From positions 186,232 to 250,231 of the forward strand of contig NZ_WVZN01000005.1 in NCBI RefSeq assembly GCF_011772445.1: a stretch of 64,000 nt of DNA, read 5' to 3'. The DNA comes from Hydrogenophaga sp. (GTDB taxonomy: Bacteria > Pseudomonadota > Gammaproteobacteria > Burkholderiales > Burkholderiaceae_C). Shown piece after piece: positions 6,570 through 10,090 of the stretch (positions within the stretch are counted from its first letter, which is position 1; each line of letters begins with the position of its first letter). Below the pieces are notes generated by a model. It was not told the DNA's origin, made no database searches, and was given only the letters and a program-made list of their open reading frames with translations. Made by a program: the position numbers and the translations under genes.

Positions 6570-7339
6570 AACGAGCCCGCATCGCCTGGGCCGGCGCGGT
6601 CCACGACGCCGTCGAGCGCGACGGCCAACTCGAGCTGCTCACGCCCGCCTTCAAAGGCCGCCGCGTCGGCTTCGACGAGGTCGTCTGGCTGCCCCCGCTG
6701 GCGCCCGTGCCGCGCCCGCGCACCGTGCTGGCCCTGGGACTGAACTACGCCGACCACGCCAAGGAACTGGCCTTCAAGCCACCCACCGAACCCCTGGCGT
6801 TCGCCAAGGGCGAGGCCTCGCTCATCGGCCACCGCGCCTTCACCGTGCGACCGGCCGACGTGAAGTTCATGCACTACGAGTGCGAGCTCGCCGTGGTCAT
6901 CGGCCGCACCGCGAAACACGTGAAACGCGGCGACGCCCGGGACTTCATCGCCGGCTACACCGTGGCCAACGACTACGCGATCCGCGACTACCTGGAGAAC
7001 TGGTACCGCCCCAACCTGCGCGTGAAGAACCGCGACACCTGCACGCCCATCGGCCCCTGGCTGGTGGACGCGCAAGACCTGCCCGACCCCGCGAACCTGG
7101 CCCTGCAGACCACGGTGAACGGCAAGGTCACCCAGAGCGGCAACACCCGCGACATGGTGTTCGACGTGCCCACGCTCATCGAGTACTTCACTTCCTTCAT
7201 GACCCTGCAGGCCGGGGACCTGATCCTCACCGGCACGCCCGACGGCGTGGTCGACTGCCAGCCCGGCGACGTGATCGTCACGTCCATCGAGGGCATCGGC
7301 GAACTGCACAACACCATCACCGCACCCGCCACCACATGA
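6566..7339 (+). CDS. hpaG2: HpaG2: 2-hydroxyhepta-2,4-diene-1,7-dioate isomerase / decarboxylase
   Basis: A 257-residue FAH-superfamily enzyme corresponding to the C-terminal, metal-binding half of HpaG. It carries GLNYADHAKEL, the metal-ligand segment HYECELAVVIGR, the conserved NDYAIRDYLENWYRPNLRVKN block, and the closing TGTPDGV and PGDVIVTSIEGIGEL signatures. It works on the ring-opened homoprotocatechuate intermediate after HpaE and HpaF. It overlaps its neighbours by ATGA on both sides, so translational coupling across hpaR–G1–G2–E is likely. Confidence 0.92.
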   Translation: MKRARIAWAGAVHDAVERDGQLELLTPAFKGRRVGFDEVVWLPPLAPVPRPRTVLALGLNYADHAKELAFKPPTEPLAFAKGEASLIGHRAFTVRPADVKFMHYECELAVVIGRTAKHVKRGDARDFIAGYTVANDYAIRDYLENWYRPNLRVKNRDTCTPIGPWLVDAQDLPDPANLALQTTVNGKVTQSGNTRDMVFDVPTLIEYFTSFMTLQAGDLILTGTPDGVVDCQPGDVIVTSIEGIGELHNTITAPATT

Positions 7340-8805
7340 CCATCCAGCACCTCATCAACGGCAAGGCCGTCGGCAGCGCCGCCACCTTCGAGACCACCAA
7401 CCCCGCCACGCAGGCCACGCTGGCCGAGGTCGCCGCTGGCGGCGAGGCCGAGGTCAACGCCGCCGTGCAGGCCGCCAAGGACGCCTTTCCCGCCTGGGCC
7501 GGCCGCCCCGCCACCGAGCGCGCGGCCATCATGCGCAAGCTGGGCGAACTCATCACGAAGCACGTGCCCGAGCTCTCGCGCACCGAGACCGACGACACCG
7601 GCCAGACGATTTCCCAGACGGGCAAGCAGCTGGTGCCGCGCGCGGCCGACAACTTCAGCTACTTCGCCGAGATGTGCACGCGCGTGGACGGCCACACCTA
7701 CCCCACGCCCACGCACCTGAACTACACCCTGTTCCATCCGGTGGGCGTGTGCGCGCTCATCAGCCCCTGGAACGTGCCCTTCATGACGGCCACCTGGAAG
7801 ACCGCGCCCTGCCTGGCTTTCGGCAACACGGCCGTGCTGAAGATGAGCGAGCTGAGCCCCTTGACGGCCGCGCGCCTGGGCGAGCTGGCGCTCGAGGCCG
7901 GCGTGCCGCCGGGCGTGCTCAACATCGTGCACGGCTACGGCCGTGAGGCGGGCGAGCCCCTGTGCAGCCACCCCGACGTGCGCGCCATCAGCTTCACCGG
8001 CTCCACCGCCACCGGCAACCGCATCGTGCAGAGCGCGGGCCTGAAGAAGTTCAGCATGGAACTGGGCGGCAAGAGCCCCTTCGTGATCTTCGAGGACGCC
8101 GACCTGGACCGCGCGCTCGACGCGGCCGTTTTCATGATCTTCAGCAACAACGGCGAGCGCTGCACCGCGGGCAGCCGCATCCTGGTGCAGCAGAGCATCT
8201 ACGCCGACTTCGCGCAGAAGTTCGCCGAACGCGCGAAGAAGATCGTGGTGGGCGACCCGCAGGACGACAAGACCATCATCGGCCCGATGATCAGCCAGGC
8301 CCACCTGGCCAAGGTGAAGAGCTACATCGAACTCGGCCCGAAGGAGGGCGCCACGATGCTCTGCGGCGGCCTGGACCGCCCGAGCTACGCGCCCGAGCTG
8401 TCGGCGCGCGTGGCCAAGGGCAACTTTGTGTGGCCCACGGTCTTCGCCGACGTGGACAACCGCATGAAGATCGCGCAGGACGAGATCTTTGGCCCGGTGG
8501 CCTGCCTGATCCCGTTCAAGGACGAGGCGCACGCCATCGAGCTGGCCAACGACATCCAGTACGGTCTCTCCAGCTATGTGTGGACGGAGAACCTGGGCAA
8601 GGCGCATCGTGTGGCGGCTTCCATCGAAGCGGGCATGTGCTTCGTCAATTCTCAGAACGTTCGCGATTTGCGGCAACCCTTTGGGGGAACCAAGGCTTCG
8701 GGTACCGGGCGCGAGGGCGGCACCTGGAGCTACGAAGTCTTTCTCGAACCCAAGAACGTGGCGGTGTCTTTGGGGGCGCACCACATTCCTCATTGGGGGG
8801 TGTGA
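7336..8805 (+). CDS. hpaE: 5-carboxymethyl-2-hydroxymuconate semialdehyde dehydrogenase
   Basis: A 489-residue NAD-dependent aldehyde dehydrogenase that oxidises the ring-cleavage product of HpaD to the carboxylate. Catalytic features: the oxyanion Asn N146 in SPWNVPF, general base E242 in MELGGKSPF, nucleophile C276 in NNGERCTAGSR, and the Rossmann loop FTGSTATGNRI. The frame is open far upstream inside hpaG2; the ATG at 7336 (overlapping the hpaG2 stop) gives the family start MTIQHLINGK. The last ~200 bases use codons that are rare elsewhere in the gene (AAT, TCT, GTT, GAT, TTG, TTT), next to the inverted repeat pair. The protein sequence there is still normal for the family. Confidence 0.95.
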   Translation: MTIQHLINGKAVGSAATFETTNPATQATLAEVAAGGEAEVNAAVQAAKDAFPAWAGRPATERAAIMRKLGELITKHVPELSRTETDDTGQTISQTGKQLVPRAADNFSYFAEMCTRVDGHTYPTPTHLNYTLFHPVGVCALISPWNVPFMTATWKTAPCLAFGNTAVLKMSELSPLTAARLGELALEAGVPPGVLNIVHGYGREAGEPLCSHPDVRAISFTGSTATGNRIVQSAGLKKFSMELGGKSPFVIFEDADLDRALDAAVFMIFSNNGERCTAGSRILVQQSIYADFAQKFAERAKKIVVGDPQDDKTIIGPMISQAHLAKVKSYIELGPKEGATMLCGGLDRPSYAPELSARVAKGNFVWPTVFADVDNRMKIAQDEIFGPVACLIPFKDEAHAIELANDIQYGLSSYVWTENLGKAHRVAASIEAGMCFVNSQNVRDLRQPFGGTKASGTGREGGTWSYEVFLEPKNVAVSLGAHHIPHWGV

Positions 8806-8842
8806 TGGGTTTTCGGGGCGCTTCGCTCATCTGGGTCGGCAG

Positions 8843-8946
8843 GATCGAAGCGCCAGGGCGCTCTGTTCCGCGAATGTCCCCCGGATCGGGCTGCGCCCGA
8901 CCCTCCTCCTTTATTTCGCTACACAGAGCGCCCTGTCACTTCGATC
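8843..8946. repeat. Structured repeat element, copy 1 (of an inverted pair)
   Basis: The outer arms 8843–8866 and 8923–8946 are complementary at 22 of 24 positions. Inside are GCGAA (8870–8874) and TTCGC (8915–8919), which pair with each other. An apical hairpin follows: GATCGGG/CCCGACC, including one G·T pair. The conserved unpaired stretches are TGTCCCCCG and CTCCTCCTTTAT. Copy 2 lies 60–150 bases downstream in the opposite orientation, with the same core but different stem sequences. There is no open frame, and this 358-base gap between hpaE and hpaD otherwise holds nothing recognisable. Confidence 0.75.
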
Positions 8947-9005
8947 AACAGACGAGCGCGGCGCGCCAACGGATGGTTGACCTCGTTCGCAGCCCAGCAG
9001 TGACG

Positions 9006-9087
9006 ATGGGTGCCCGCCGCAGCGAAATAAAGGAGGAGCCAAGGGCGCAGCCCTTGGCGGGGGACATTCGCGGAGGCGGGCACCCAT
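9006..9087. repeat. Structured repeat element, copy 2 (inverted relative to copy 1)
   Basis: Perfect 13-base arms ATGGGTGCCCGCC (9006–9018) and GGCGGGCACCCAT (9075–9087) enclose the conserved GCGAA (9022–9026)/TTCGC (9067–9071) pair and an apical hairpin CCAAGGG-CGCAG-CCCTTGG (9039–9057). Read in the same sense as copy 1, the single-stranded parts ATAAAGGAGGAG and CGGGGGACA are identical, while both variable stems differ but remain paired. It looks like a bacterial interspersed palindromic element (BIME-like) or a structured RNA. Confidence 0.75.
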
Positions 9088-9163
9088 TGGCGCTGCCCCC
9101 CACCAAGGCAGCCGAGCAATCGGTGGCAAACCAAGCCACCACACCTGGAACAGGAGACCAACC

Positions 9164-10090
9164 ATGGGCAAGCTAGCACTGGTAGCCAAGATCACCCACG
9201 TCCCCTCCATCGTCCTCAGCGAGATCGATGAGGGCCCCCGCAAAGGCACCCGCCAGGACGCCATCGACGGCCTCAAGGAAATAGGCCAGCGTTGCAGAGA
9301 CATGGGCGTCGACACCTTCATCGTCTTCGACACCCACTGGCTGGTCAACGCCAGCTACCACATCAACTGCGCCAAACACTGGCAAGGCAACTACACCAGC
9401 AACGAACTGCCGCACTTCATCGCCAACATGCCCTACGCCATCCCCGGCAACCCCGAACTGGGCAAGCTGCTGGCCAAGGTGGCGAACGAGTGGAAGGTGG
9501 ACACCCTCGCGCACGACGGCACCACCCTCGCGCCCGAGTACGGCACCCTGGTGCCCATGCGCTACATGAACCCCGACCAGCACTTCAAGGCCGTGTCGGT
9601 CTCGGCCCTGTGCATGGCCCACTACCTCAACGACAGCGCCCGCCTGGGCTGGGCCCTGCGCCGCGCCATCGAGGACGAATACGACGGCACCGTCGCCATC
9701 CTTGCCAGCGGCTCGCTCAGCCACCGCTTCGCGCAGAACGGCCTGGCGCCCGAATACGCCTTCAAGCTCTGGAGCCCCTTCCTGGAAACCATGGACCACG
9801 AGGTGGTGCGCATGTGGCAAAGCGGTGAGTGGAAGGCCTTCTGCGAGATGCTGCCCGAGTACGCCGTCAAGGGCCACGGCGAAGGCTTCATGCACGACAC
9901 GGCCATGATGCTCGGGGCGCTCGGCTGGAGCGAGTACGACGGCCACGGCGAAGTCATCACGCCGTACTTCGGCGCCTCGGGCACGGGCCAGATCAACATC
10001 GTCTTCCCGGTCACGCCGGTCACGGGCAAGGCCATCCCGCAGCCGCAGGCCTCCTCGGCCCAGGGCTTCCAGGCCGTCTCGCGGCTCTGA
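9164..10090 (+). CDS. hpaD: Homoprotocatechuate (3,4-dihydroxyphenylacetate) 2,3-dioxygenase
   Basis: A 308-residue class III (LigB-type) extradiol dioxygenase, which cleaves the ring of homoprotocatechuate with Fe(II) and O2. The metal/active-site region FDTHWLVNASYHI near residue 50 matches the family, as do the AHDGTTLAPEYGTLVPMRY block and SGSLSHRFAQNG. It resembles E. coli HpaD/HpcB rather than the vicinal-oxygen-chelate type. An AGGAGA site lies just upstream of ATG 9164. Unlike the tightly overlapping upstream genes, it is separated from hpaE by a 358-base gap filled with two structured repeats, so it may have its own promoter or altered expression. Confidence 0.94.
   Translation: MGKLALVAKITHVPSIVLSEIDEGPRKGTRQDAIDGLKEIGQRCRDMGVDTFIVFDTHWLVNASYHINCAKHWQGNYTSNELPHFIANMPYAIPGNPELGKLLAKVANEWKVDTLAHDGTTLAPEYGTLVPMRYMNPDQHFKAVSVSALCMAHYLNDSARLGWALRRAIEDEYDGTVAILASGSLSHRFAQNGLAPEYAFKLWSPFLETMDHEVVRMWQSGEWKAFCEMLPEYAVKGHGEGFMHDTAMMLGALGWSEYDGHGEVITPYFGASGTGQINIVFPVTPVTGKAIPQPQASSAQGFQAVSRL

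Follow-up and report, generated by a model that had tools for sequence, protein, structure and literature searches.

BIMEs and GTAG REPs, as described in three sources (PMC2817692, PMC3733652, PMC8266576), are dispersed extragenic palindromes with irregular stems, which form inverted pairs of two different partners and are found downstream of genes. The REPs themselves are 20-40 nt long (PMC3733652). For REPINs, PMC3116915 describes an inverted doublet with a constrained spacer as the likely unit of spread, single copies that look like remnants and compensatory changes as a common feature. The TIR repeats of TIRYTs form a further set of Y1-associated repeat families; PMC3733652 and PMC6006769 (subclass 2.1) give GGGGWSAS as their consensus and report that they often occur as dimers and that some are self-complementary. 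PMC3686654 contains no TIRYT terms.

The window analysed here, a 64,000-nt stretch of Hydrogenophaga sp. DNA, contains two hairpins between hpaE and hpaD, genes of an aromatic-degradation operon. We consider this pair to be probably one copy of a non-autonomous, REP/BIME-like interspersed repeat unit of about 250-330 bp. The element works as a BIME does, with structured palindromes of two types joined in inverted, interspersed pairs; it falls outside the GTAG REP superfamily. A search covering part of the literature revealed no paper describing its core, and the papers matched by the core letters bear titles on unrelated topics. The features of the locus, in window positions, are:

7336..8805, plus strand: hpaE, the gene left of the pair (context only; HpaE TIGR02299, 784.6 bits)
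8839..8949, minus strand: left element, hairpin 'B' of the unit (full covariance-model match, 115.0 bits; DNA fold)
8875..8883, minus strand: core of the left element, 3' strand CGGGGGACA (letters)
8884..8902, minus strand: variable apical stem-loop of the left element, GGTCGGG-CGCAG-CCCGATC (letters; the equivalent columns covary)
8903..8913, minus strand: core of the left element, 5' strand of the internal loop TAAAGGAGGAG (letters)
8950..8991, no strand: spacer of 42 nt between left and right elements (from covariance-model coordinates)
8992..9102, plus strand: right element, hairpin 'A' of the unit (full covariance-model match, 115.3 bits; DNA fold)
9028..9038, plus strand: core of the right element, 5' strand of the internal loop TAAAGGAGGAG (letters)
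9039..9057, plus strand: variable apical stem-loop of the right element, CCAAGGG-CGCAG-CCCTTGG (letters; the equivalent columns covary)
9058..9066, plus strand: core of the right element, 3' strand CGGGGGACA (letters)
9164..10090, plus strand: hpaD, the gene right of the pair (context only; HpaD TIGR02298, 431.7 bits)

The original prediction had placed two elements at 8843–8946 and 9006–9087, and both the coordinates and the letters were re-derived exactly. As described there, the outer arms pair with themselves over 24 nt with exactly two mismatches in the first element and perfectly over 13 nt in the second, the inner pair GCGAA/TTCGC is common to both copies, and the unpaired core strands are identical between them. 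The flanking genes had also been named correctly, with matches to the NCBIfam equivalog models TIGR02299 and TIGR02298. For the apical stems (CCAAGGG/CCCTTGG against GGTCGGG/CCCGATC) the change of four of seven pairs on both sides holds, one of the four being a G-T wobble. A search with AAATAAAGGAGGAG, allowing up to two mismatches, gave 2 matches in the window compared with a mean of 0.00 in 100 shuffles. Relative to shuffles, folding of the first (left) and second elements reached z values of -8.24 and -6.56 as DNA and of -8.61 and -6.55 as RNA. The covariance model detected no other element in the window up to E = 1; the one extra match was the right element read on the opposite strand (33.9 bits).

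Each element is a hairpin of about 100 nt that holds a near-invariant asymmetric internal loop (11/9 nt). From 5' to 3' it consists of an outer arm, a 3x3 loop, an inner stem, TAAAGGAGGAG, an apical stem-loop, CGGGGGACA and the complementary half. The outer arm comprises about 22 pairs with one recurrent purine mismatch, the inner stem five pairs, and the purine-rich 3x3 loop sits between the two. The sequences of the outer arm and the apical stem are arbitrary, yet paired. The covariance model has 111 positions and 33 pairs, and its matches run over the full length. In an alignment of 29 diverse copies from many genera (A1, the 111-nt sequences among 89 representatives), 93.0% of 956 cells were paired against 62.5% after shuffling, and this value dropped to 35-41% when the partner strand was slid. 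Changes on both sides were found in 32 of the 33 pairs (outer helix 21/21, inner 4/5, apical 7/7), and the covariation score of 0.796, compared with 0.204 for shuffled alignments, was reached by none of 500 shuffles. The representatives had been selected by a pattern on the core, so that core conservation in this alignment is partly by construction. The compensatory change around a fixed core that the original prediction read from two copies thus extends to further copies, here and in the locus alignments below.

Among 311 pattern-selected copies, the 3x3 loop was GCA/GGA in 199 and GTA/GGA in 44. The inner stem of such copies was GAA/TTC in 225, GAA/TGA in 37 and GAG/CGA in 13, and follows two regimes, Watson-Crick (GAA/TTC, GAC/GTC, GGG/CCC, GGC/GCC) and tandem G-A (GAA/TGA, GAG/CGA). 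Hairpin-templated correction of quasipalindromes is known from bacterial mutagenesis, and ordinary palindromes kept perfect in this way would show covarying arms and compensatory change in the absence of structural selection. The paired changes by which the host and G028 orthologues at the hpa locus differ would fit such a process. However, it would erase unpaired positions, whereas the 11/9-nt loop is kept across families and the 3x3 loop is retained in the proportions given above; moreover, the inner-stem states change together, tandem G-A forms included. We therefore regard correction of this kind as a very improbable source of the pattern.

Copies beyond the window had been named as the point on which the family would stand or fall, and they are abundant in the host and in other genomes. 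With the pair as query, the host genome gave 68 matches; the strict core AAATAAAGGAGGAG...GGGGACATT gave 35 and the relaxed core TAAAGGAGGAG...CGGGGGACA 42, a lower bound (at least 42), with no match for the reversed control of either pattern. The strict core was present in 23 of 60 genomes sampled in the genus and in 23 of 299 sampled in the family (12 of 141 genera), where one genome (G341) had 88 copies of it. Across the order, the relaxed core was found in 16 of 399 sampled genomes (8 of 158 genera), including 9 of the 11 genomes of family f13 and two of family f21. In a class-wide sample of 274 genomes the covariance model matched 3, and G775 (family f63) among these has 13 matches. Copies thus occur in Comamonadaceae, two other Burkholderiales families and Xanthomonadaceae. 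A scan of named genomes returned at least 120 stretches; among the 80 matches listed, the carriers are Variovorax, Hydrogenophaga, Ramlibacter, Rhodoferax, Xylophilus, Pseudorhodoferax, Lysobacter, Stenotrophomonas, Pseudoxanthomonas and Stagnimonas. Plasmid matches comprised three Variovorax records; viral contigs had no exact match and phage records no match. Some of the listed pattern matches are due to chance, as is that in the AT-rich L159, which is devoid of pairing arms. A record titled Bacillus subtilis SK7B5 (L158) has 67.5% G+C in the fetched stretch and a Stenotrophomonas-like element, and is probably mislabelled or mixed. Some host copies contain runs of N (G000:C2, C9, C12, C50), which are probably assembly gaps at the hairpins.

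The likeness to BIMEs drawn in the original prediction was borne out by inverted pairs, two hairpin types, near-constant spacing and intergenic position. In 54 loci from the named-genome scan, the model identified 39 pairs and 18 singles, two weak opposite-strand matches being left out; 38 of the 39 pairs are minus/plus and one is minus/minus, and the model ends within pairs are mostly 29-59 nt apart. When the arms were clustered, two different hairpin types were joined in all 36 units: 14/14 in the host, 16/16 in Variovorax (a set that includes orthologous loci between strains) and 6/6 in f13. Random pairing of types would give 9.9, 8.7 and 3.3 two-type units, respectively, and the f13 set of 6 units taken alone is not significant (p 0.066). 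Mean arm identity within a unit is 0.49 in the host, 0.43 in Variovorax and 0.45 in f13, and each hairpin of a unit has close relatives in other units. Since the two types are joined in all 36 units and each has close relatives elsewhere, the two-type pair looks, from these comparisons, like the unit of spread.

An inverted doublet as the likely unit of spread, the constrained spacer, the remnant-like singles and the compensatory changes all recall REPINs as described in PMC3116915. The REPIN doublet, however, is symmetrical and folds as one hairpin across its spacer, whereas the partners described here each fold alone, have different arms and share little beyond the core. With REPs and BIMEs the family has in common many extragenic copies, inverted pairs of different partners, irregular stems and a position downstream of genes; a palindrome of 20-40 bp and a cognate RAYT flanked by the repeat were absent, the latter at 57 Y1 loci. 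The element is about 100 nt long as against the 20-40 nt given in PMC3733652. Its fixed motif is an internal loop in the middle of the stem, in contrast to the GTAG foot of the GTAG REPs in these descriptions, and its stem sequence is essentially free. No GTAG or GTGG foot and no conserved tetranucleotide at the foot of the hairpin was found; the inner stem is preceded by GCA or GTA, which lie within the hairpin stem as part of the 3x3 loop. Membership of the GTAG REP superfamily was rejected on these grounds, namely size, foot motif and linked RAYT.

Two sites were compared between the host (G000) and its relatives. At site 1, the host has a 287-nt unit, interrupted by an assembly gap, where G049 has 1 nt, G039 30 nt, G056 16 nt and G047 18 nt; a unit is present in G028, G359 and G355 have other sequence of 120 and 142 nt, and G022 has 2.4 kb. 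At site 2, 333 nt in the host stand against 25 nt in G039; G028 again has a unit, G022 has one element, and G056, G359 and G355 have other short sequence. The model confirmed elements in 3 of 14 stretches from relatives (G028 at both sites, G022 at site 2), and apart from G028 there was no match in 11 of 12. Units are therefore present or absent at orthologous sites. Where they could be aligned, the differences between host and G028 look like the loss of single hairpins, and no insertion with defined ends or target duplication was caught in the compared sites. At another place, the flanks of one host unit (L003/L006, G000:C6 and C26) match two G028 contigs (L262/L266), a split caused either by rearrangement or by contigs having been joined at the repeat during assembly. 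At a further one, G028 has about 1.86 kb of other sequence (L299:3893-5755, G028:C21) where the host has a unit (L259:4888-5217, G000:C12).

The hpaE-hpaD gap was searched with the model in 48 cases, with gap lengths from 2 nt upward. Both elements were found in 29, one in 7 and none in 11, and one gap was cut by a contig end. Alignments of the 111-nt elements from this locus, other lengths being dropped, showed 94.9% of cells paired in 27 left elements (A2; 75.7% shuffled) and 91.3% in 24 right elements (A3; 70.8% shuffled), and in either set 24 of the 33 pairs had both of their sides changed. In the left set, the count of further pair types was matched by 11 of 500 shuffles and is a weak measure. 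Judged by the standard pairing rules, two inner pairs are open in 13 of 26 left and 18 of 24 right rows; this is the tandem G-A form, and it counts against a simple five-pair stem. The 5' core strand was exact in 52, the 3' strand in 62 and both in 51 of 66 elements, all of which were found by a model itself trained on that core. The right elements of L211 and L224 are chimeric, with the 5' arm of one kind and the 3' arm of another, which suggests exchange through the core. At this locus the pair is old, as distant species have it in common, and it gives no sign of current mobility.

The genomic setting was analysed with a simple codon-based gene caller trained on the window, and duplicates were removed from the orientation counts only where identical. 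Of 136 units with both neighbours called, 49 lie between convergent, 80 between co-directional and 7 between divergent genes; for 219 gaps that lack an element and measure 100 nt or more, the corresponding numbers are 15, 118 and 86. Units avoid divergent promoters. One of 137 placed units lies inside a called gene, and a further 39 lie at locus edges. In 42 independent co-directional loci, 56 of 69 cases had the nearest arm elsewhere on the same side, against an expectation of 34.7. For loci outside G000 and G028 the figure was 41 of 44 (21.9 expected), reached in none of 400 permutations; all Variovorax-type units faced the same way (19 to 0), and a single non-host unit (L191) appeared reversed. 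Within G000 and G028 it was 15 of 25 (12.3 expected; 96 of 400 permutations) and not significant. A smaller first count had given 20 of 20 (host 7, Variovorax 13), and in the 42 loci this polarity holds outside the host genus only. Two causes would produce it: strand-specific insertion, combined with the usual orientation of genes along the direction of replication, or a role in transcripts.

If the second were true, the hairpins would be structured RNA elements that act in transcripts, for example by stabilising them or by providing sites for processing, both at 3' ends and between operon genes, with RNA-level selection keeping the stems paired and dispersal as an old by-product. The very stable RNA folds, the strong bias to sites after gene ends, the non-host polarity and the persistence of the hpaE-hpaD pair with compensatory change in many species all agree with this. 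Every minus/plus pair, however, presents the core once per orientation, so that one transcript reads one copy in sense and one in antisense; the polarity is not significant in the host and G028; and the pair is missing from close relatives with the same hpa operon. In addition, Rfam 15 gave no match at the gathering score in 11 loci; for window positions 8000-10000, the only matches up to E = 1 were to miRNAs, below threshold and at the level of chance. We judge a function in RNA to be unlikely as the main explanation, and the interspersed repeat unit is preferred.

The original prediction had proposed looking for a RAYT-type transposase in the genome. The host does have one Y1 gene (Pfam Y1_Tnp), but it is flanked by a different repeat, GGGGTCAGA, and not by the element; GTCCCC is also present in the downstream flanks. 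Y1 genes in the host's family are flanked by inverted GGGGTCAGA repeats and, by analogy with those of PMC3733652 and PMC6006769, look like TIRYTs. Comamonadaceae genomes almost always have a single Y1 gene (L009, L063-L088) with inverted GGGGTCAGATTCCAATT-like repeats around it. The element core (TAAAGGAGG) was found within about 1.5 kb of the Y1 gene at none of 57 loci (27 + 30; 56 distinct, as L074 and L312 are the same stretch, with one further Y1 hit without a locus left out). No Y1 hit was obtained in 4 of 31 element-bearing genomes (G002, G079, G289, G326) and in 3 of 21 others (G544, G749, G751). A Y1 gene is present in 27 of 31 genomes with the strict core and in 26 of 30 without it, the latter set being defined by the strict AAATAAAGGAGGAG pattern and not truly negative (G001 has four model matches); because Y1 is near-universal, this co-occurrence is uninformative. 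The search for a shared neighbouring gene was rejected as a lead, since the clusters inspected consisted of metabolic genes of a generic kind, of shadows of reading frames or of repeated copies of a single locus, and no transposase stood out.

The one link between element and Y1 would be the heptamer GGGGACA of the core, which resembles GGGGWSAS; the last base is T in most copies, a mismatch, and C in some. The element could accordingly be a TIR repeat of the known kind, a terminal-repeat family moved by a resident TIRYT-type Y1 transposase. The resemblance of CGGGGGACA followed by T or C to the consensus, the dimers reported in PMC3733652 and the GGGGTCAGA flanks of the host Y1 gene are consistent with this, the comparison having been made by the consensus and descriptions in that source. 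Against it, the motif match covers 7 nt only and was noticed post hoc, the rest of the TIR is AATT-rich and unlike the element, carriers devoid of a Y1 hit exist, and, in contrast to the repeats as described there, a second strand of the element (TAAAGGAGGAG) is conserved, its core is buried and none of the Y1 genes examined is flanked by it. This assignment appears doubtful to us, and the REP/BIME-like unit is retained.

For such a unit, a trans-acting protein would recognise the single strand in its folded form, reading the core in the internal loop and the geometry of the helix and not the sequence of the stems. The unit would be moved or copied whole, probably as single-stranded DNA by an HUH (Y1-type) enzyme, and single hairpins would later be lost as units, leaving half-units and remnants. 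A TIRYT-type Y1 transposase, possibly acting in trans on the element, is the likeliest candidate, though a tentative one; the reason for favouring it is that GGGGWCA occurs both in its terminal repeats and in the core of the element. Against this explanation stand the absence of a linked enzyme and of a common neighbouring transposase, the equal frequency of Y1 with and without the strict core, the seven carriers devoid of a Y1 hit, the failure to catch an insertion with defined ends or target duplication and the age of the pair at the hpa locus, and the non-host polarity relative to transcription could point to an RNA role.

It is also possible, if on balance not probable, that a protein other than a resident RAYT reads the buried core in a large hairpin with free stems, and that the direction in which the asymmetric unit is placed or retained is fixed with respect to transcription or replication. 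This would represent a new class of structure-recognised repeat, with a sequence-light, shape-based address common to at least two proteobacterial orders. The 20-base core is nearly fixed over families and an order boundary, while the 33 surrounding pairs turn over and stay paired; few natural experiments in structure-based recognition are as clear as this family. Its partner protein would show how a shape is read with little sequence, whether REP-like repeats can exist without a linked RAYT and how the direction of a unit relative to genes arises. The family also amends annotation, in that pairs of this kind occur within operons and flag places where recombination and loss take place. The relatives searched further gave many matches to another short repeat, likewise dispersed, around GCTGCGCGTGACCCCCTCAAGGGGGC (L360:17421-17510, G000:C2).
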